This document shows positions 950-11,418 of a DNA stretch of 64,000 bases, piece after piece. Numbering within the stretch: position 1 is the stretch's first letter; each line of letters opens with the position of its first letter. Below the pieces are notes generated by a model. It was not told the origin of the DNA. It saw only the letters and a list, made by a program, of their open reading frames with translations, and did not search any database. The stretch lies in the NCBI RefSeq assembly GCF_035917235.1, contig NZ_CP108423.1:2168501-2232500 (forward strand), in the 5' to 3' direction. The position numbers and the translations under genes are program-made. This DNA is from Streptomyces sp. NBC_01294 (lineage in GTDB: Bacteria; Actinomycetota; Actinomycetes; Streptomycetales; Streptomycetaceae).

Positions 950-984
950 CGTTCACGAGGAACGAGCCCTGACGTTCACGAGGA
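942..984. repeat. 20-bp direct repeat at the junction of two convergent genes
   Basis: The 20-mer AGCCCTGACGTTCACGAGGA occurs at 942-961 and again at 965-984, a period of 23 bp. The first copy carries the stop codon of the TAXI gene. The second contains, on the other strand, the stop codon of the ROK kinase gene. It looks like a small tandem duplication. Confidence 0.85.
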
Positions 985-1995
985 GGACGAGGGCGACGGC
1001 AGCAGCATCGTCGCCGCGGCGGCCGCGCCGATCAGGCCCGCGTGGGTGCCCAGGGTCGCCGGTACCACCTGGAGCTCCTGCACGAAGGAGAGCGTGGCGT
1101 AGGCCGCGAGGTGGCTGCGGATCGGAGTGAAGAGGGTGTCGCCGGCGGCGGCGACCCCGCCTCCGATGACGGCGATGTCCGTTTCGACGAGGGTCGCGGT
1201 CGCCGCGATGGCGGCGGCCAGGGCGCGCCCCGCGCGGTCGAAGGCGGCCAAGGCGATCGGGTCGCCGGCCTCGGCGGCCGCGGCCACGCCCGCCGCCGTG
1301 GCGTCGCCCGCGCTGCCCGGGCGGTCCGCCGGGGTCCAGCCCTGGGCCCGGGCCCAGTGGGCGATCGCCGTGCCGGAGGCGATCGACTCGACGCAGCCGC
1401 GGCCGCCGCAGACGCACGGTTCGCCGTCGAAGGCCACGCTGATGTGACCGATGTGTCCGGCGTTGCCGGTGGGGCCGGGGTGGAGCTGGTTGTTCAGGAT
1501 CAGGCCGCCGCCGACGCCGGTGGAGACCACCATGCACAGCGCGTTCGCGTGGCCCCGGGCCGCGCCCAGCCAGTGCTCGGCGGCGGTCATCGCCACGCCG
1601 TCACCGGCCAGTACGGTCGGCAGGTCGGCCCCGCGCTCCGCGAGCTCCGCCGAGATCCGCTCCTGGACCGGGAAATCCCGCCACGCCCCGATGTTGACCG
1701 GGCTGACCGTGCCCCGGGAGGCGTCCACCGGACCTGCGCTGCCGATCCCGCAGCGGACCGCCGAGGCCCACAGCGGGGACTCCGACAGGTCGGCGACGAC
1801 CGCGGCGACCGCGGCCATGACACCGTCGGCGTCCGCTCCGCGCGGGGTCGCGCGGCGGGTCGTGGCCGCCATCGTGCCGTCGGGGTGCACCAGCGCACCG
1901 GCGATCTTCGTGCCGCCGATGTCGATCGCCACCGTCAGGCCGGCGGCCTGGGCGGAGGCCCGCGGTGCGGGGAACGGGGCGGTGGGAGTGATCAC
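976..1995 (-). CDS. ROK-family sugar kinase (gluco/mannokinase-like)
   Basis: 339-aa sugar kinase of the ROK family. It has the N-terminal ATP-binding motif DIGGTKIAGALV (about residues 25-36), a TGVGGGLILN phosphate/sugar-binding region, the GHIGH motif and the zinc-binding CVCGGRGCVE cluster. The start is GTG at 1995 with GGAG upstream. It is the last gene of the minus-strand arm GH38 - lacI - ROK, and 21 bp separate it from lacI. Family members phosphorylate glucose, mannose, GlcNAc or ManNAc. In this locus of mannoside-cleaving enzymes a role on mannose or GlcNAc is the natural inference, but the substrate cannot be read from the sequence. Confidence 0.88.
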   Translation of the reverse strand: MITPTAPFPAPRASAQAAGLTVAIDIGGTKIAGALVHPDGTMAATTRRATPRGADADGVMAAVAAVVADLSESPLWASAVRCGIGSAGPVDASRGTVSPVNIGAWRDFPVQERISAELAERGADLPTVLAGDGVAMTAAEHWLGAARGHANALCMVVSTGVGGGLILNNQLHPGPTGNAGHIGHISVAFDGEPCVCGGRGCVESIASGTAIAHWARAQGWTPADRPGSAGDATAAGVAAAAEAGDPIALAAFDRAGRALAAAIAATATLVETDIAVIGGGVAAAGDTLFTPIRSHLAAYATLSFVQELQVVPATLGTHAGLIGAAAAATMLLPSPSSSS

Positions 1996-2016
1996 GGTGG
2001 CGGCTCCAGGAAGGGT

Positions 2017-3252
2017 TCAGGATTCAGTATGCGCCGGGGGCGGCGCCGTGCTCTCGCGAGGCTCCAGTCGCGGCTGCTCGCTGATCCGGATCCCGGGCGG
2101 GCTGCCCGCGAGGACGGCGAGGAGTTCCTCGGCGGCGAGCCGGCCGAAGCTGGCGGTGTCGCGCACGAGGGCGGTGAGCCGGGGGTGGGTGACCCGGCAG
2201 AGCGCGGAGTCGTCCCAGGCCACGATCGACAGCCGGCCCGGCACGGGGATGCCCAGCTCGGCGGCGACCGCGCTCCCCGCGACGGCCATCACGTCGTTGT
2301 CGTAGACGAGCGCGGTCGGCGGCCGCGGCTCGGCGAGGACCCGGCGGGTGGCCGCCGCGCCCTCGGCGTCGGAGTAGTCGGTGACCACCGAGCGCACCTG
2401 GTCGGGGCCGAGCCCGCGCCGCGCGGCCTCGGTCCGCAGGGAGTCCATCCGGCGGACCGTGTGGGCGAGGCCGGGGAGCCCGGCGATGTGGACGATCCGG
2501 CGGTGGCCCAGCCCGTGGAGGTGGTCCAGGACCTGGGCCATGGCCCCGGCGTCGTCGGCCCGGACCGAGGAGACCGAGGAGACCGAGGAGACCGACGAGG
2601 ACGGCGAGGACGGCGAGGACGGCGAGGACTGAGAGAGCGGCGAGGACTGCGAGACCTCCGGGGCCGCCGCGAGCGGGGAGGCCGGGGAGCCCGACGACGA
2701 CGGCGAGACCGCCGGAACCGCCGCGAGCGGGGAGCCGGACGAGCCCAGGGCCGGGAAGGGGCCGGCGGGCGGTGCGGCCTCGCCGATGGTGACCGCGGGC
2801 AGGGCCAGCTCCTCGAGGAGCGCCGGGCGCGGGTCCCGTACGCGCGGGTCGACGACGAGGACGCCGTCGACCCTCCGTTCGGCCCACCAGCGGCGGTAGA
2901 CCGCACATTCGGCGTCGATGTCCTCGACGACCTGGAACAGCAGGGCGGTCCGGGCGGCGGAGAGGACCTCCTGGATGCCGGAGACGAGCTGCAGGAAGAA
3001 GGACTCGACGCCGAGCGTGTGCGCGGGCCGGGCGAGGACCAGCCCGACGGCTCCGGAGCGTTCCCCGGACAGGGCGCGGGCGGCGCTGTTGGGCTGCCAG
3101 CCGAGTTCCTCGGCGACGCGGCGGATCCGGGCCCGGGTGTCCTGCGAGACGCCCGGCCGGTCGTTGAGCGCGAAGGACACGGCGCTCTCCGACACCCCGG
3201 CCTGCCGGGCGATGTCCTTGATCGTGGGTCTGCGGGCCATGGCCTGCCTCAT
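2017..3252 (-). CDS. LacI-family transcriptional regulator with Ser-rich insertion
   Basis: 411-aa repressor. Residues 10-50 form the LacI helix-turn-helix (TIKDIARQAGVSESAVSFAL) and hinge, followed by the periplasmic-binding-like effector domain. The usual family length is about 340 aa. The excess is a low-complexity Ser/Pro/Ala insertion at about residues 160-230, coded by 9- to 12-bp tandem repeats near 2570-2632. The ATG at 3252 overlaps the stop codon of the GH38 gene (ATGA), so the genes look translationally coupled. An alternative ATG at 3240 has GAGGCAGG just upstream. Two palindromic sites in the divergent promoter region (7697-7768) are its likely operators. An oligomannose-derived inducer is inferred. 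Confidence 0.92.
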   Translation of the reverse strand: MRQAMARRPTIKDIARQAGVSESAVSFALNDRPGVSQDTRARIRRVAEELGWQPNSAARALSGERSGAVGLVLARPAHTLGVESFFLQLVSGIQEVLSAARTALLFQVVEDIDAECAVYRRWWAERRVDGVLVVDPRVRDPRPALLEELALPAVTIGEAAPPAGPFPALGSSGSPLAAVPAVSPSSSGSPASPLAAAPEVSQSSPLSQSSPSSPSSPSSSVSSVSSVSSVRADDAGAMAQVLDHLHGLGHRRIVHIAGLPGLAHTVRRMDSLRTEAARRGLGPDQVRSVVTDYSDAEGAAATRRVLAEPRPPTALVYDNDVMAVAGSAVAAELGIPVPGRLSIVAWDDSALCRVTHPRLTALVRDTASFGRLAAEELLAVLAGSPPGIRISEQPRLEPRESTAPPPAHTES

Positions 3253-6200
3253 TCATCCTTCGAGTGCGTCATACGTGGCGAAATACGGAGGGCAATGGCC
3301 GGACCGTACGCGATCCTGCCCTGGCAGACCGCCTTGACCGCCATCCAGTACTCCCCGGGAGGGGTGTGGATCGGCGGCCGCAGCGCGAACTCCACCCCGG
3401 CCGCTCCCTCCGCCGGCACGTGCAGGGGCAGGGCGGCGGGAGCCGTCAACGGCCAGGTGCCGTACGGGGAGACGGCGAGGGCCACCCCCGTCAGCGCACT
3501 GCGCACGCCGGTGCTGCCGATCCGGGCCCGGACGAGGCCCCGCGCGCCCGGCGCGAGGGTCACCACCGGCTCGGGGGCCTCCACCCACAGCCCGGCGGGG
3601 ACGGGGCCGCCGGGAACGGTCACGGTCAGCACGTCCTCGAACTCCCCCGCCGGGGTGGCCGCGAGGATCCGGACCAGGTGTTCACCGGGCGCGGCTCCTC
3701 CTGCGGGCGCCACGCTCAGCGGGATCCGCCCGTGCCCGCCGGGCGCCAGGTCCACCACGCGCCGGGTCCAGGAGGTGTGCCAGCCGTCGGGGGCTCGGAC
3801 CTCCAGCGCGACGGGGCCGCCCGCACCGGCGTGGGAGGCGAGCGTCACCGTCGCGGCGGACGGTGCTCCGTCACAGGTGACCGTGTACGGCGCGTCCCCC
3901 AGCGGGGCCGTCCCCGTGTTGTGCAGCCAGTAGCGGCTGAACACGGGCTGGTGCGGCTCCCGTTCGCCGTGGCGCAGCGGCATGCCCGACGGCGTCCGCA
4001 GCAGCAGGGTGGTGGTGGCCGCGCCGCCGAGGCCCGCCCCGAAGGGCCCGCGCGGGCGGTCCAGGAGGTCCGCCTCGGCGGCCGGCTGCGTGGGCCAGTG
4101 CACCTCGGGCGCCGCCGGGCGGCCGTGCGTCTCGCGCAGCCGGACCGCCAGGCCGCCCTCCTCGCCCCGTTTCACGGTCTCGATCAGGACCCGGTCGGCC
4201 GGTTCCACGCCCAGGAGGGAACGGGCCGGCGGTTGCGGGCCGGCCGTCGGTGCGGCGGTGACGGCGGTGAGGGGCTTGTTGAACTCCCGTCCCCGGCGCG
4301 CCAGGTCCGCCTCCCGCCAGTCCCCGTCCCCCGCCACCAGCGCGTGCTCGAAGACGTGCGTCCAGTGCTGGAGCTGGAACGAGCTGCCGTCGGGGGCGGT
4401 GCGCCGGGGAGGGTCCATCCACTCCCCTGCGGGGCGCCCGGTGCAGGAGCGCATCAGGGTGCTGTGCAGCCGGCCCGCCGTGTCCACGGCGAAGCCGGGC
4501 GTGCCCCGGACCAGGATCCCGACGGTCCGGCGCGCGTAGGGAACCTCATGCGGGACGCCGCAGGGAACCGCGCGCCCGACGTCGCAGCCGCCCGCACAGG
4601 GGACCTCGTACGGGACTTCGTACGCCGCCTCGTGCGGGACCTCATGCGCCGCCTCGTACGGGACGTCGTGCGCGGCCTCCCCGGCCGGCGCCCCCGCGGC
4701 TTCCAGGCGGCCCGAAGCGGCGACGGCCCGGGCCAGTTCCGCCGTCGGCCCGGTGTACACCAGGACCGGCAGGTCCAGGACTCCGGTGAGGTCGCAGCCC
4801 GGGCTCCACAGGGCGCGCAGCGGGGCCCGCGCCGGGACCCACGCCCGCGCGTGCTCTCGTACGGCCTGGGTGTGGGCGGGGTCGGCCGCCGCCAGCACCG
4901 CCGCCGTGAAGGCATTGGCCTCGGGGCCGCCGAGGGCGATCCGGAAGTCCGGGAGGCTGCTGTCCACCGCGAGGTCGCCCCAGCGGGGTCCGGCGGGCCG
5001 GGTGGGGGTGGCGGTGACCCCGTACCGGCCGAGCGCCACGACCAACTCCCGCAGGCCGTCCGGGGTTCCCGTGTCCGGCAGCACGATCTCCGCCGCTCCC
5101 AGCGCCCGGTCCGGCCCGGCCAGCGGCGCCGACAGCGCGAACCAGTTCAGACAGGGGCTGTCCAGGGTCCACGGGGCCCTGGTGTGGTCGGCGCCCGCGT
5201 CCGCCTCGGGGAAGGCGAAGCCGCGCCCCACCGCCGCGGCGGCCGTCTCCGCGACCGGGACCGCGCCCGGCACGTCGGCCGGGATCCGCAGCCGCAGCAG
5301 GTGGTCGGAGCCGTTGAACTCATCGACACGGGTGGTCAGTTCCACCCGGTCCAGGCCGTCCCACAGGGTGGTGGTCCGCGTCCAGCGGACCGGACCGGTG
5401 CGCCCGGTGGCGACGATCCGCGCCCCGAGCGGCCCCCGCTCCACGCGGCAGGACGTGGCGGGTGCGGAGCCCGAGCCGGTGCCGGGGCCCTTGGGCAGCA
5501 GGTGCCACGGGCCCTCTCCGAAGACCGGGTGCCGGTCGTACTCGTCCTGCACGACCAGCTCGTCCACCTCCCCCGCGCTCATGAGTTGCTGCCCGGTGCG
5601 CCGGTCCAGCAGCCGGGCCAGGCCGCCCCCGCGCTCCGGGTCCGCCTCGGCGCGGAAGGCCTCGTTCTCCACGACCAGGCCGTCCGCCGGCTCCCAGCCA
5701 CCCGAGAGCGGCAGCTCGGAGGCCTCCAGCCACCAGGTCCGGTACCCGAGCGAGGGCACCTCCTCTGCCAGGAACACCACCTCGGCCACGCCGTCGGCCG
5801 CCGCCTCGACGTGGACGGGCGCGCGCCGGCCCACGGCGTCGCGGACGCTGATCCGGTGTGCCTGCGCGGCCGTCAGCCCCAGCGCCGCCAGGTCGACGGA
5901 CGTGCGGACCAGGTCGGTCCGCGTCCAGGACACCGGGTTGTGCACGGTCGCCGCCAGCGGGGCCGGTTCCCGGGTGCCGGCCGCGTCGGCCGGCGGGGCC
6001 TGCCCGCGGGTATCGGCCGCGTCCGTCAGCGCGGCCAGCGCCTCCTGCCGTACGGCGGCGGCCAGTTCGTGCGCCTCCCGCCAGGTCGGGAGCAGGTCCA
6101 GGTACACCTGGTCGGAGAAGGTTCCGGTGACGGCGTCGTGGTGGGCGGCGTGCAGCAGGTGCCGCCAGGCCTTGCCCAGGGTCTGCGCCGGATAGTCCAG

Positions 6201-7667
6201 CAGGCCTTCGGCGCAGGCCAGCGCGGCGAAGGTCTCGGCTTGTTCGAGGAGGTTCTCGGCGGCCCGGTGGGCCTGTTTCACATCGCTGTAGGTGACGTCC
6301 TTGCCGGTGTAGACGGGGCCCATCTCCCGGGTGACCGGCAGCGGCCGCTCCCCGCGCGCCGCGAACTCCGCCCGGACGGCGTCGAAGTGGGCGCGCGGGC
6401 CGGAGTGCTCCATGCGCGGCCAGCAGTAGCGGCGGTTCCAGGTGTGCTGCACGTCCAGGCCCCAGCGGTGGGGCCAGGAGAAGTCGGTGCCCATCGGGAT
6501 CAGGACGTTCTTCGTCGCGGCGGCGGTCCGCAGCAGTTCGTAGAGCTCCAGGAGCTGCTCGGCTGCGGCCTCCGCGTCGGGCGCCCGGTGGGAGAACCAG
6601 CCGGCCGAGTAGTGCGCGGGCAGGTAGTGCAGCAGCAAGCCCTGCCCGCCGCTGTCGCCGGGCGCGATCCACTCGTACTCGGCGGGCAGCTGCATGGCGG
6701 CGGGCGCCCGCAGGGGGCCGCCCCAGGTGTCCGCCATCGGGCCCCACTGGTGGTGCGGGCCGCGGGCGAGGACGGCGGAGTCGAGTCCGCAGCCGGCCAT
6801 CAGGGCGGGAAAGGACGGGTCGTGGCCGAAGACGTCGAGCTGCCAGGCGGTGCGCGGATCGGCGCCGAGGGTGCCGCGGTGCAGGGCGAGGCCGTGGACG
6901 GCGCTGCGGACGGTGGTCTCGGCGCAGGTGAGGTTGGTGGACGGCTCGTTGTAGGTGCCGCCGACGATCTCGACGCGGCCGTCGGCGATCAGCGCGCGCA
7001 GCTCGGCCCGGTCGGCGGGGTGGGTGTCCCAGTACGGCTTCAGGTAGTCGACCTCGGAGAGCACGAAGCGGTACGCCGGGTCCTCGCGCGCCTGTTGGAG
7101 GTGGAGCGGGATCAGGGTGAAGGCGGGGACGCCCTGGTACTCCCAGCCCTTCTCCGCCTCGCCGGGCTTCCGCGGGGCGTCCCACAGGGCGGTGTAGGCG
7201 GCCTGGGTGTTCCACCACATCGGGTCGTAGTGGAAGTGCGGGACGAGCCGGACGGTCCATCCGGGCTCGGCGACGGTCAGCCCGAACGGCAGCTCGGCGA
7301 GCGGCCGGCCGTCGGGGGTGGTGACCCGGGCGGTGGCGGCCAGCAGCTCCCCGGGCGCGGCGGCCCCGGTGCGGACGGCCACCTCGACCGTGGACTCCAG
7401 GGCACTCCCGGCTCCCGCGGCCCCCTGCACCACCCCCTGCGACTCGTGTCCTTCGTGCGCTTCGTGCGCTTCGTGGTCCTCGGCGGTGTCCGCGCGCACG
7501 ATGCGGGGGTGCGGGGTACTGACCCCCGCGCCGTCCACGGTGACGTACAGCGGGCCCGCCGGACGCTCCCTCCTGATCCGTACGCGGACGACCTGCGCGG
7601 GTGTTTCCGGCGGCCCCGTGAACAGGGCCGGAGTGGTGACCGCCGTGACCGAAATACCGCTGCCCAT
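3249..7667 (-). CDS. GH38-family alpha-mannosidase
   Basis: 1472-aa glycoside hydrolase family 38 enzyme, predicted to remove alpha-linked mannose. The metal-site motif HFHYDPMWW lies at residues 144-152. The nucleophile is probably D278 in AWQLDVFGHD, matching the family WxIDPFGH pattern. The middle and C-terminal parts are the usual beta-sandwich domains, and an NPCBM/NEW3-like module sits near the end. There is no signal peptide, so it should act in the cytoplasm. ATG at 7667 is chosen because AGGGAAG lies upstream; the frame extends to 7697, but that start would overlap an operator. Oddities are short imperfect repeats rich in Glu-Val-Pro-His/Tyr (coded at about 4540-4690) and an Asp-His-Glu-Ala-rich stretch (about 7440-7490). 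It is the first gene of the minus arm. Confidence 0.92.
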   Translation of the reverse strand: MGSGISVTAVTTPALFTGPPETPAQVVRVRIRRERPAGPLYVTVDGAGVSTPHPRIVRADTAEDHEAHEAHEGHESQGVVQGAAGAGSALESTVEVAVRTGAAAPGELLAATARVTTPDGRPLAELPFGLTVAEPGWTVRLVPHFHYDPMWWNTQAAYTALWDAPRKPGEAEKGWEYQGVPAFTLIPLHLQQAREDPAYRFVLSEVDYLKPYWDTHPADRAELRALIADGRVEIVGGTYNEPSTNLTCAETTVRSAVHGLALHRGTLGADPRTAWQLDVFGHDPSFPALMAGCGLDSAVLARGPHHQWGPMADTWGGPLRAPAAMQLPAEYEWIAPGDSGGQGLLLHYLPAHYSAGWFSHRAPDAEAAAEQLLELYELLRTAAATKNVLIPMGTDFSWPHRWGLDVQHTWNRRYCWPRMEHSGPRAHFDAVRAEFAARGERPLPVTREMGPVYTGKDVTYSDVKQAHRAAENLLEQAETFAALACAEGLLDYPAQTLGKAWRHLLHAAHHDAVTGTFSDQVYLDLLPTWREAHELAAAVRQEALAALTDAADTRGQAPPADAAGTREPAPLAATVHNPVSWTRTDLVRTSVDLAALGLTAAQAHRISVRDAVGRRAPVHVEAAADGVAEVVFLAEEVPSLGYRTWWLEASELPLSGGWEPADGLVVENEAFRAEADPERGGGLARLLDRRTGQQLMSAGEVDELVVQDEYDRHPVFGEGPWHLLPKGPGTGSGSAPATSCRVERGPLGARIVATGRTGPVRWTRTTTLWDGLDRVELTTRVDEFNGSDHLLRLRIPADVPGAVPVAETAAAAVGRGFAFPEADAGADHTRAPWTLDSPCLNWFALSAPLAGPDRALGAAEIVLPDTGTPDGLRELVVALGRYGVTATPTRPAGPRWGDLAVDSSLPDFRIALGGPEANAFTAAVLAAADPAHTQAVREHARAWVPARAPLRALWSPGCDLTGVLDLPVLVYTGPTAELARAVAASGRLEAAGAPAGEAAHDVPYEAAHEVPHEAAYEVPYEVPCAGGCDVGRAVPCGVPHEVPYARRTVGILVRGTPGFAVDTAGRLHSTLMRSCTGRPAGEWMDPPRRTAPDGSSFQLQHWTHVFEHALVAGDGDWREADLARRGREFNKPLTAVTAAPTAGPQPPARSLLGVEPADRVLIETVKRGEEGGLAVRLRETHGRPAAPEVHWPTQPAAEADLLDRPRGPFGAGLGGAATTTLLLRTPSGMPLRHGEREPHQPVFSRYWLHNTGTAPLGDAPYTVTCDGAPSAATVTLASHAGAGGPVALEVRAPDGWHTSWTRRVVDLAPGGHGRIPLSVAPAGGAAPGEHLVRILAATPAGEFEDVLTVTVPGGPVPAGLWVEAPEPVVTLAPGARGLVRARIGSTGVRSALTGVALAVSPYGTWPLTAPAALPLHVPAEGAAGVEFALRPPIHTPPGEYWMAVKAVCQGRIAYGPAIALRISPRMTHSKDE

Positions 7668-7696
7668 TTCCACACACTTCCCTGTGACCAGCCACA

Positions 7697-7712
7697 ACTA
7701 AAGCGCATTAGT
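7697..7712. promoter_or_regulatory. LacI-type operator 1
   Basis: ACTAAAGCGCATTAGT is a 16-bp palindrome around GCGC with only one mismatched pair. It sits 30 bp upstream of the GH38 start codon, as expected for a LacI-family operator controlling the minus arm. Confidence 0.75.
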
Positions 7713-7752
7713 TTCCCCAGGTTCCGACGAGCGGAACCCTTGTGTCAACTGG

Positions 7753-7768
7753 ACTGAAGCGCATAAGT
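7753..7768. promoter_or_regulatory. LacI-type operator 2
   Basis: ACTGAAGCGCATAAGT shares 14 of 16 positions with operator 1, has the same central GCGC, and lies 56 bp away centre to centre. It precedes the GH5-GH85 arm. Two related sites in one divergent intergenic region support joint repression of both arms. Confidence 0.7.
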
Positions 7769-7816
7769 AGGCGGACTTGAGGCCCTGTTGACTTTCCTCA
7801 TCCGCACCGGCAGGTT

Positions 7817-9169
7817 GTGCCCCACCCGGTGAATTCCCCCAGAACTCCAGGACGCCTTGTGCACGATCACGCGCTCCGCTTCGGCGCCAACTACACGCCG
7901 TCCCGCGGCTGGTTCCACCACTGGCTGGACTTCGACCTCGACGAGGTCAGGGCCGACCTCGACTCGATCGCCGCGCTCGGGCTGGACCACGTCCGCGTCT
8001 TCCCGCTGTGGCCGGTCTTCCAGCCGAACCGGACGCTGATCCGCCCGCGCGCCGTCGAACAGCTCGTCGCGCTCGCCGACGCGGCCGCCGAGCGCGGACT
8101 CGACGTCAACGTGGACGGGCTGCAGGGGCACTTGTCGAGCTTCGACTTCCTGCCCGCCTGGACCGGGACCTGGCACCGGCGCAACATCTTCACCGACCCG
8201 GACGTCGTCGCGGGGCAGGAGGAGTACCTGCGCACGCTGGCCGCGGCCCTCGCCGACCGGCCGAACTTCCTGGGCATGACCGTCGGCAACGAGATCAACC
8301 AGTTCTCCGACGCCCCGCACCCCGACCCCGACCGGATCACCCCGGCCCAGGCCGCCCGCTGGCTGGAGCGGATGCTCGCCGCCTGCGAGAAGGGCGCGCC
8401 CGGGCGGTTCCACCTCCACGCCGAGTACGACGCCGCCTGGTACCGGGACGGGCACCCCTTCACCCCGGCCCAGGCGGCCCGGCTGGGCGCGGCCACGGCC
8501 GTGCACTCCTGGGTGTTCAACGGCACCGCGCAGCGCCACGGCCCGAGCGGGACGGCGACCGAGCACCATGCGGCGTACCTGATCGAGCTGTCCAAGGCCT
8601 GGGCCGACGATCCGCACCGTCCGGTGTGGCTCCAGGAGGTCGGCGCCCCGGCGCCGCTGATCCGGCCGGAACACGCGGCGCGGTTCACCGAGGCCACCGT
8701 CGCGAACGCCCTGGACTGCCCGGACTTGTGGGGCGTGACCTGGTGGTGCTCGCACGACGTGTCCCGGGAGCTCGCGGACTTCCCGGAACTGGAGTACGGC
8801 CTCGGCCTGCTCACCAACGACCGCCGGACCAAGCCGGCCGGCGCCGCCATCGCCCGGATCATCGAGGAGTGGCGGGGCCGCGCGCACCGCCCCGCACCGC
8901 GCTCCACCGCGCTCGTCGTGGACGGCGTGGGCGGGCTGGACGGACTGGACGTCGGCGGGGCGCAGGGGGCCCCGGGCCGCTCCGCGTGTGCCCCGGGCGG
9001 CGCCTTCTTCGAAGCCTGGGCAGCGCTGACGGCCCAGGGGGTGCGGCCCGCGGTGGTCCTGGCGGAGCGCGCCGAGGACCCGGCCCACCTGTCCGCGCGC
9101 GGCATCACCGAGGTGCTGCGCGTGCACGACGTGACCCGACCGAACGTGACCCGACCGAGCCCGACCTGA
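7817..9169 (+). CDS. GH5-like glycoside hydrolase, probable beta-mannosidase
   Basis: A TIM-barrel glycosidase resembling family GH5. Numbered from GTG 7817, E159 in the GNEINQF motif fits the acid/base and E274 in WLQEVGAP fits the nucleophile. GTG at 7859, in the same frame, has CCAGGA seven bases upstream and may be the true start. No signal peptide is seen, so a cytoplasmic enzyme is predicted. With GH38 and GH85 beside it, the likely substrate is the Man-beta-1,4-GlcNAc core, as for GH5 subfamily 18 enzymes; the subfamily assignment is inference. The last codons and the stop lie inside a 15-bp degenerate tandem repeat, which gives an Arg-Pro-Thr-rich tail. Confidence 0.82.
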   Translation: MPHPVNSPRTPGRLVHDHALRFGANYTPSRGWFHHWLDFDLDEVRADLDSIAALGLDHVRVFPLWPVFQPNRTLIRPRAVEQLVALADAAAERGLDVNVDGLQGHLSSFDFLPAWTGTWHRRNIFTDPDVVAGQEEYLRTLAAALADRPNFLGMTVGNEINQFSDAPHPDPDRITPAQAARWLERMLAACEKGAPGRFHLHAEYDAAWYRDGHPFTPAQAARLGAATAVHSWVFNGTAQRHGPSGTATEHHAAYLIELSKAWADDPHRPVWLQEVGAPAPLIRPEHAARFTEATVANALDCPDLWGVTWWCSHDVSRELADFPELEYGLGLLTNDRRTKPAGAAIARIIEEWRGRAHRPAPRSTALVVDGVGGLDGLDVGGAQGAPGRSACAPGGAFFEAWAALTAQGVRPAVVLAERAEDPAHLSARGITEVLRVHDVTRPNVTRPSPT

Positions 9170-9235
9170 CCGAGCGCGGACCGACCGAGCACGACCCGAG
9201 CGCGACCGACCGAGCGTGACCCGACCGATCCCCTC
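9129..9235. repeat. Degenerate 15-bp tandem repeat
   Basis: About seven imperfect copies of GTGACCCGACCGAGC run through the 3' end of the GH5 gene and into the gap before the GH85 gene. The stop codon at 9167 falls within the array. Confidence 0.8.
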
Positions 9236-9249
9236 GTGAGGAGCCCCGC

Positions 9250-11418
9250 ATGTCCGAGACCGACCACGGCGTCGATCCTCGTACGCCGCCCGCCCCTGTA
9301 CGGCCGACCCGGCGCGCGCTGCTGGCCGCCGGGGCCGGGGCCGCCGCGCTGCTGGGCGCGCCCGGCCTGGCCCCGCCCGCCACCGCCGCCACCGCCGCCG
9401 CACCCGCGCGCACCACCGCGACCGTCGCACCCACCCCGCCGACCCCGCCGACCCCGGCCGACCTGGCCCCGTACGCCTCCTACTGGTTCCCGGACTCCCT
9501 CCCGGCGGGGACCCCCGGCCCCGGGATCGTGTGGCGCTCGCTCAGACGGTGGACCCCGGAGAGCGACCCCGATCTGGCCCACAACACCGCGACCGTGCCC
9601 CTGGCGCAGCGGTTCACCCCGGTCCCGGCGAACCGCCACGCCCGCGCCGGCCAGGCCCGGATCGCCGCCCTCGTCTCCTTCGGGCCCACCGCCGGGAACC
9701 CCTCCCAGGGCTCTCCGACGGCCGACTACTACGCGCTCTCCCACTGGGCGTACATCGACGAGCTGGTCTTCTGGGGCGGCTCCGCCGGCGAGGGGATCGT
9801 GCTCGCCCCGAACGCCCCCGTGGTCGACGCCGCCCACCGCAACGGGGTCCGGGTATTGGGCAACGTGTTCCTGCCGCCCGTCCCCTACGGCGGCGACCTC
9901 CAGTGGACCCGCGACTTGGTGCGGCGCGACGCCCTCGGCCGCTTCCCGATCGCGGACCAGCTCGTCCGGGTGGCGCGGGCGTACGGCTTCGACGGCTGGT
10001 TCGTGAACGCCGAGACGGACGGCGGGGACAGCGCGCTCGCCGGCCGGATGCGGGAGTTCCTGCGCGCCCTGCGGGCGGCGGGCGAACCGCACGGTCTGCG
10101 CATCACCTGGTACGACGCCATGAACACCACCGGCCGGGTGGGCTGGCAGGGCGCCCTCAACCAGCTCAACCAGGAGTTCTTCGAGGACCGGGCCGGGAAG
10201 GTCGCGGACACGATGTTCGTGGACTTCCGCTGGACCCCGCGGACCCTGGCCGCCTCGGGCGCGCTCGCCGACCGGCTGGGCCGCTCCCGGTACGAGCTGT
10301 GGGCGGCCGTGGACACGGAGGCCCACGGCTGGAACTCCGCCGTCCGCTGGGACGCGATCATCCCGCGCGAGCGCGACCACGTCGTCGGCTACGGCTTCTA
10401 CCGGCCCGAGTGGACCCGCAACCACCTCACCGACCGCTCGCCCGGCGCCTTCCACCGCGCCGACGACCGCTTCTGGACGGGCGAGTCCCTGGACCCCGCC
10501 CGGCCCGCGCCCGAGTCCGGCTGGCGGGCCCCCGCCACGGTCGTCGCCGACCGGTCCACCGTCGCCGGGCTCCCGTTCGCCTGCTCCTTCAACACCGGGC
10601 ACGGGCTGCGCTGGTACGACCACGGCAAGGTCGTCTCCGACGTGCCCTGGAACCACCTCGGGCTCCAGGACCGGCTCCCGGGCCGCCGCTGGGCGGTGGA
10701 CACCGCCGGGGTGCGACCCGGCGTCAGCCTGGACTTCGACGACGCCTGGCGCGGCGGCTCCAGCCTGCTGGTCGCGGGCGCCCTGACCGCTCCCGCGACC
10801 ATCGGGCTGCACTCCACGCGGCTGCCGCTGAGCCGCGCGACCGTCGTGGAGCTGGTGCACGCCACCGGGTCGGGGCCGGTCACGGTGGAGATCGGCGTGG
10901 CCACCCGCGAGCCCACCGCCCCCGGCGAGCCGGTCCCGTACATCTGGCTGGCGGCCGGGAGCCGGGACTCCGGGCAGGGCTGGCGCACGACACGGGCCGG
11001 CCTCGCGCACCTGGCGGGCAGCACCGCGTACGCCCTGGCCGTACGGATCACCGCGCTCGGGACGGAGCCGGTGGCGTGGCGGCTCGGGGCCCTGTCGGTA
11101 CGCGACGAGCCCCGCACCCGGCGCCCGGCCCCGCCCACCGCCCTGCGCGTGGACGCCGCGGCCCGGCAGGACGGCCGGGCGCGGCTGCGCCTGTCCTGGC
11201 GCCGGGCGGCCGCTGCGGGCGGGCAGATCCGCCACTACGAGGTGTCCCGGATCCTCCCCGACGGCACCCGCCGCTTCCTCGGCGGCACCTGCGGCACGGC
11301 CCTGCACCTCCCGGACGTCCCGCGGGCCGGCCGGGAGCGCGCGGCCGCCTTCGAGGTCCGGGCCGTCGACGAGCTGTACGCGGTCTCGGCCCCGGCCCGC
11401 ACCACCCTCGCCTGGTAG
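9250..11418 (+). CDS. GH85 endo-beta-N-acetylglucosaminidase, Tat-exported
   Basis: 722-aa enzyme that should cut between the two core GlcNAc residues of N-glycans. The N-terminus has a twin-arginine-type signal (TRRALLAAG, then an Ala-rich core), so export is predicted. The family NxE catalytic pair is present as N253 and E255 in [10 protein letters not shown]. Around it are the conserved [20 protein letters not shown] and ITWYDAMN segments. After the catalytic barrel come a beta-sandwich, carbohydrate-binding-like region and a C-terminal fibronectin-III-like domain (about 620-722). The ATG has GTGAGGAG upstream. It is the only exported enzyme of the locus and so should be its first step. 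Confidence 0.93.

Follow-up and report, generated by a model that had tools for sequence, protein, structure and literature searches.

How does a Streptomyces strain that appears equipped to dismantle the mannose-rich glycans of glycoproteins import them, when no sugar transporter is encoded beside the enzymes? The question is raised by a locus at positions 976-11418 of a 64,000-nucleotide stretch of DNA (the window) from Streptomyces sp. NBC_01294 (contig NZ_CP108423.1, positions 2,168,501 to 2,232,500). Five genes form two divergent transcription units here: a ROK-family sugar kinase, a LacI-family regulator and an alpha-mannosidase of glycoside hydrolase (GH) family 38, called GH38w, are read leftward, and GH5_18 and GH85 enzymes are read rightward. 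An earlier, sequence-only reading had described them as a compact, divergently arranged locus for the utilization of N-glycans, and had noted that import must be provided elsewhere. All five genes are borne out as open reading frames (ORFs) with family matches (that of the GH5-like enzyme being to solved structures in the PDB), and sugar transporter genes are indeed absent from the locus. The window, however, very probably contains only the enzyme part of a regulon for oligomannose N-glycans that is under LacI control and divided between two loci, with the predicted importer encoded in a distal ATP-binding cassette (ABC) operon. This reading is based on gene content, operator sharing and co-occurrence; substrate, transport, repression and the specificity of the kinase are inferred.

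The two places are linked by a palindromic operator with the consensus ACTNAWGCGCWTNAGT. Within the own genome (8.5 Mb; G000, with C1 as its contig, other G numbers denoting genomes and L numbers locus stretches), the only perfect matches are the two sites O1 and O2 in the common promoter region between GH38w and GH5_18 (7668-7816). Sites were scored by their mismatches and compared with a control, the reversed consensus. The sole site with one mismatch, at C1:988288, stands at the distal operon, and a site with two mismatches lies 106 bp from it at C1:988394; measured from the listed ORF start of a solute-binding protein (SBP), the two begin 111 and 217 bases farther out. This SBP, two permeases and a second GH38 enzyme, GH38t, make up the operon; all are on the minus strand, the transporter genes span C1:984.9-988.2 kb, and the distance from SBP to GH5_18 is 1.19 Mb. 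As in a CUT1 importer, an SBP_bac_1-type lipoprotein is accompanied by two BPD_transp_1 permeases. The earlier expectation that import is provided elsewhere thus gains a specific candidate, an ABC operon with the same operator. The window's LacI is the predicted repressor of both the window locus and the distal ABC/GH38 operon; a search of the whole genome at E <= 1e-50 gave no second LacI of this kind.

The operator recurs across relatives, and at the same kinds of promoter. A named collection supplied the best 80 of 510 relatives as named loci, some on contigs that end within the locus. A locus is termed joined where permease 2 directly precedes GH5_18 and split where it has the window's arrangement, with no transporter; 48 loci are joined, 28 are of the window type, three are neither and one is cut by a contig end. 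These 80 loci (1.52 Mb) contain 129 sites with at most two mismatches, every one outside mapped gene bodies, and a single hit for the reversed control. At this threshold the operator is found in 45 of 48 joined loci and in 24 of 28 split loci. The joined loci without it (L145, L153 and L171) lie on contigs cut before the promoter; the split ones are L108, L118, L131 and L163. When both collections are considered (100 loci, some genomes occurring in both), 156 sites fall in SBP or GH5 promoters (74 kb) and four in the remaining 1.80 Mb. These four, too, are located between LacI and the gene that follows: in L087 they exceed the 700-base limit set for a promoter, and in L155, where SBP was not seen, they precede permease 2. 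In 14 genomes of the window's clade (own included), all 34 sites with at most one mismatch are at regulon genes, 33 of them at the two promoters and the other before the LacI gene of a scattered locus (genome G012). With two mismatches allowed, 13 of 14 GH5 loci and 13 of 14 SBP loci in the clade carry a site, the exceptions being L013 and L062. Over 86 loci of both the joined and the split kind, the helix-turn-helix (HTH) of LacI shows 74-100% identity, and its stretch SAVSFALN is present in 86/86, in line with one operator.

The genes of the two places also co-occur. Among 199 Streptomyces genomes, the own included, GH5_18 was found in 109 and GH85 in 80. With a threshold of E <= 1e-80, 59 of these genomes have an SBP, at an identity of at least 69% in 17 and of 36-43% in 42. 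All 14 genomes (own included) whose GH5_18 is at least 86% identical have an SBP that is at least 80% identical. The other three of the 17 are G036, G048 and G089, with GH5_18 at 69-71%; in G036 and G089 the high-identity SBP stands beside GH5_18 on the same strand, and in G048 contig ends intervene. In two assemblies (L087 and L088) the orthologue of the distal transporter itself adjoins GH5_18. In the named collection, the distal SBP was present in 7/7 split-type genomes searched, at 76-86% identity, and in 0/3 others. Within the stretches covered, the 28 split loci have ROK in 28, LacI in 26 and GH85 in 26, and the 48 joined loci have SBP in 45, LacI in 44, GH38t in 44 and GH85 in 31.

Loss of the repressor provides a further view of the system. 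LacI is absent from two of the split loci that have no operator, L131 of S. toxytricini (genome G199) and L163 of strain NRRL S-87 (genome G200), and a whole-genome search at E <= 1e-50 detected no LacI orthologue in either, having found one in the other 6 of 8 genomes searched. Both genomes retain the distal SBP. The operator is absent from their GH5 promoters even at up to four mismatches. Of their distal SBP stretches, L204 has one site with three mismatches and L205 has none at up to three.

The family evidence for the enzymes fits this picture. GH5_18 has no match in Pfam or NCBIfam, and is placed by phmmer matches to the solved enzymes 7lr7, 9y4v, 7lqx, 6mp2 and 6gvb (E 6.5e-216 to 4.4e-108). 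The best of them, ScGH5_18 (7lr7, E 6.5e-216), covers nearly the whole length and puts the enzyme in subfamily 18, as the earlier reading had supposed, and not in an unrelated one; the exo-beta-1,4-mannosidase of Cutibacterium acnes (6gvb) matches at E 4.4e-108, and BlGH5_18 and BlMan5B were also matched. The catalytic motifs GNEINQ and WLQEVG are present. For GH85, matches to 2vtf (E 2.8e-104) and 3fha (E 9.1e-104), both of which we take to be Endo-A, and to Endo-D (2w91) accompany a motif FVNAET that aligns with FINQET of 3fha. Its assignment and that of GH38w hold at the Pfam scores in Table 1, and inspection by eye agrees that GH85 has a Tat-like N-terminus and that GH38w and GH5_18 have no visible signal peptide. 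The roles assigned to the catalytic motifs of GH5, GH85 and GH38 enzymes are in part general background.

Table 1. Features of the window locus (numbered within the window) and of the distal operon (numbered on contig C1)
Feature	Position	Strand	Evidence or remark
ROK-family sugar kinase	976..1995	-	Pfam ROK 207 bits
LacI-family regulator	2017..3252	-	Pfam LacI + Peripla_BP_3
GH38w, divergent alpha-mannosidase, 1472 aa	3249..7667	-	Pfam Glyco_hydro_38N 150 bits, Alpha-mann_mid, NEW3
Operator O1, ACTAAAGCGCATTAGT	7697..7712		palindrome in divergent promoter
Operator O2, ACTGAAGCGCATAAGT	7753..7768		palindrome in divergent promoter
GH5_18 exo-beta-mannosidase, predicted Man-beta-1,4-GlcNAc hydrolase	7817..9169	+	phmmer to PDB enzymes
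GH85 endo-beta-N-acetylglucosaminidase, Tat-like signal	9250..11418	+	Pfam 259 bits, GH85_C
Lipoprotein SBP	C1:986777-988177	-	SBP_bac_1-type; lipobox TAAC by eye
Permease 1	C1:985803-986780	-	BPD_transp_1
Permease 2	C1:~984.9-985.8 kb	-	BPD_transp_1
GH38t	C1:981837-984860	-	38N + middle domains

The own genome has only two GH38 enzymes, both in operator-bearing units, the one outside the window having been located at C1:983331. In each, the 38N and middle domains are present, as are the motifs for metal binding and for the nucleophile. GH38t is the one most like solved bacterial alpha-mannosidases (7ufr-7ufu, E 5.5e-258 to 2.6e-224), which are presumably B. longum enzymes. GH38w is the divergent one and is often missing from relatives; it has weak PDB matches only (best E 4.3e-12), with the motifs HFHYD, WQLDVFGHD and HHDAVTG present and the active-site motifs invariant in an alignment of four. 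At residues ~995-1045 it carries a degenerate repeat of the type PYEAAHEVPHEAAYEVPYEVP. The ROK protein has the ROK domain, the ATP motif DIGGT and the zinc-type Cys motif CVCGGRGC; the residue before xGH, usually Glu, is His in this protein (AGHIGH). Its best PDB match is the glucokinase 3vgk (E 2e-45), and an attempt to read its specificity from families ended below the cut-off of each of the 12 NCBIfam models listed.

Together, these components suggest a pathway. The exported GH85 would release ManxGlcNAc from glycoproteins outside the cell, and the distal SBP and two permeases would take it up, powered by an ATPase encoded at another place, which we assume to be a shared MsiK. Trimming of the alpha-mannoses is assigned to GH38t and GH38w because no match to GH92 or GH125 was found in the genome (other mannosidase families were not searched). 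GH5_18 would then split Man-beta-1,4-GlcNAc, and the ROK kinase may phosphorylate one product, Man or GlcNAc. LacI is predicted to bind the palindromes in both promoters and to repress until a glycan fragment arrives.

Several observations weigh against such a shared regulon. Counted over the own genome, 14 sites with at most two mismatches stand against 21 hits of the reversed control, so there is no enrichment; the argument therefore rests on the positions of the sites, and the remaining two-mismatch sites, being no more frequent than the control, were set aside. The 34 sites with at most one mismatch in the 14 clade genomes likewise compare with 56 control hits. The two genomes without the repressor were picked because LacI is missing from their loci. 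No ATPase gene is among the four genes of the distal operon, and the pneumococcal N-glycan binder NgtS (5swa/5swb), considered as a relative of the SBP, was rejected, being absent from the 55 PDB matches listed for it and from the best 60 of 77. Three genomes, moreover, have LacI although at least one of the two promoters has poor sites or none: G202 (L108) has LacI, yet three-mismatch sites only at both; G203 (L118) has LacI and good distal sites, yet none at up to four mismatches at the GH5 promoter; and G078, with no site at up to one mismatch, has two-mismatch sites at GH5 and none at up to two at SBP. These three genomes, the two mismatches of the second distal site and the general resemblance of LacI-family operators to one another would suit a different arrangement, in which LacI governs the window locus only, a separate repressor with a similar operator controls the distal operon, and the transporter encoded there serves another alpha-mannoside. 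We hold this to be quite unlikely. A tblastn search of G000:C1:974000-1006000 found no relative of the window's LacI (best E 0.89, over 25 aa), which tests for such relatives and not for every repressor family; in the 14 genomes, sites with at most one mismatch occur only at regulon genes; orthologues of the distal transporter adjoin GH5_18 in L087 and L088; and in 2/2 genomes the absence of LacI coincides with the absence of the operator at both loci.

The substrate could also be an alpha-mannan or another mannose polymer, with GH85 as an accessory. Within the stretch covered, GH85 was not seen in 17 of 48 joined loci (some contigs being cut), so that importer and GH5_18 are often kept without a local GH85, and in the genus set GH85 is the rarer of the two enzymes (80 against 109 genomes). 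Against this, the accessible parts of two papers report that the characterized GH5_18 of C. acnes cleaves Man-beta-1,4-GlcNAc, whose linkage belongs to the core of N-glycans (PMC6160142), and that characterized GH85 enzymes act on N-glycans only (PMC10154615), and a mannan substrate seems rather improbable to us. Even less probable, in our judgement, is that the distal transporter lies next to GH38t by chance and that the glycan enters through some broad oligosaccharide transporter unrelated to it. Streptomyces genomes encode many CUT1 transporters, and the strong match of the SBP to 6wpm, which belongs to a paper on a 'modified sugar-binding protein' of Synechococcus, does not identify its ligand. 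Of the 80 named loci, however, 48 have transporter genes immediately ahead of GH5_18, and the operator is present in 45 of these 48. A LacI-controlled regulon in two places is the reading with which we continue.

How the two places came apart can be traced in part. For SBP, permease 1 and GH38t, the nearest counterparts of the proteins of the window's clade are in G036, G048 and G089, and the SBP of mainstream joined loci is distant from that of the clade. Trees of SBP, permease 1 and GH5_18 were built from a selection of the loci (26 rows per tree), and groupings were assessed with the approximately unbiased (AU) test. A grouping of the clade with mainstream joined loci is rejected by SBP (AU p 0.0008) and is not rejected by permease 1 (p 0.153); GH5_18 does not reject a grouping with the B type (p 0.497). 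The proposal that the window's enzymes and its transporter come from different lineages was accordingly upheld only in part, as permease 1 and GH5_18 do not settle the grouping. L083 (genome G074) and L113 retain, between GH85 and the histidine kinase, a GH38t of the mainstream type; its grouping with the distal GH38 is firmly rejected (AU p 3.7e-59, 26 rows), and G074 additionally has a distal GH38t that is 89% identical to that of the window genome. The ancestor of the clade therefore probably had both a mainstream one-place locus and a second transporter-GH38 operon, the in-place transporter then being lost. GH38t is kept in place in 1 of 28 split loci. We think it somewhat likely that the repressor kept the pathway together through this transporter swap: the one-place operon would have lost its own ABC transporter and, mostly, its own GH38, import would have passed to a distant relative of that operon, an ABC-GH38 unit at a distance of 1.2 Mb that already had, or kept, the LacI operator, and where the repressor was lost the operator would have gone at both places.

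GH38w is found beside GH5_18 in several relatives' loci and seems to be disappearing from the window's clade, since none was detected (E 1e-15) in 22 of 28 split loci; it is full in four and a remnant in two. In L099 and L100, remnants of less than 400 bases lie between LacI and the operator, just before GH5_18. In G012 the regulon is scattered (L081, L086, L194, L195), with LacI-ROK and an operator at 5.80 Mb, the transporter at 5.57 Mb, GH85 at 7.30 Mb and GH5_18 at 8.95 Mb. L096, L097 and L098 represent a second type of GH5_18 locus (type II, GH5_18 ~55% identical) with a GH38w-like enzyme, SBP and permeases, and L096 has two GH3 genes nearby; the three type II loci fetched have no operator at up to two mismatches.

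Some details of the window locus and its surroundings may be added. The ORFs of all five genes lie in the frame with high GC at third codon positions. The stop of GH38w overlaps the start of LacI (3249/3252), and 80 bases separate GH5_18 from GH85. For GH38w, a start at ATG 7667 is more plausible than the listed TTG 7697, because the latter touches O1. LacI has a Ser/Pro-rich, low-complexity stretch at residues ~160-232 of its effector domain, and is 411 aa long compared with 337-393 aa (from the HTH match) in the complete relatives compared. The left flank (2-949) is a gene for a TAXI-type solute-binding protein, which is not a sugar family, and the right flank is a histidine kinase; both flanks recur in four joined loci (L123, L126, L128 and L137). 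About 6 kb beyond the distal SBP, at G000:C1:993919-998191 (L048 1919-6191), are an alpha-galactosidase with a ricin-type lectin domain and an alpha-N-acetylglucosaminidase (NAGLU), with no operator at up to two mismatches in that stretch.

Among known systems, the sequence-only reading had drawn a parallel with the high-mannose N-glycan loci of Bifidobacterium; the system of B. longum is reportedly that of Cordeiro et al. 2023. The likeness holds for GH85, GH38, GH5_18 and oligomannose uptake, as far as the available portions of the papers go (PMC10154615, PMC11758915). In B. longum three GH38s and a GH125 come from one operon, with the uptake genes mnaABC, whereas the window genome is without GH125. 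A closer printed precedent is NGD locus 1 of C. acnes, described in the accessible part of PMC6160142 as having sugar ABC genes and a regulator alongside GH38 and GH5_18 enzymes that lack signal peptides. Its GH5_18 was shown to split Man-GlcNAc, and 51 Streptomyces GH5_18 sequences were noted in the same text. The window shares its hallmark, GH38 beside GH5_18 and, by eye, no signal peptides. The C. acnes locus has its transporter in place, together with GH20 and a GH18 listed without a secretion signal; the window, in contrast, has an exported-looking GH85, no GH20 among its five genes and a transporter 1.19 Mb off under the same operator. The EndoD/NgtS-P1-P2 system of Streptococcus pneumoniae shares GH85, ROK, GH38 and an SBP-permease-permease importer away from the mannosidase locus, and differs in using GH92 and GH125, both absent from the window genome; the portion of PMC5215778 consulted does not mention a shared LacI operator. 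A description of such a regulon or operator in Streptomyces was not found in the open-licence literature, including the available part of a Bifidobacterium regulon paper (PMC4746261). The enzymology is thus known from Cutibacterium and Bifidobacterium, and what is new is the operator, the distal importer and the split arrangement.

These findings name a candidate for the importer that the locus lacks, and the compact operator allows the regulon to be read in other Streptomyces. GH38w represents a type of alpha-mannosidase without a close solved relative. The locus and its relatives provide a well-sampled case in which a catabolic operon came apart and the sites of its repressor were kept, and their distribution suggests that many Streptomyces feed on the sugars of glycoproteins.

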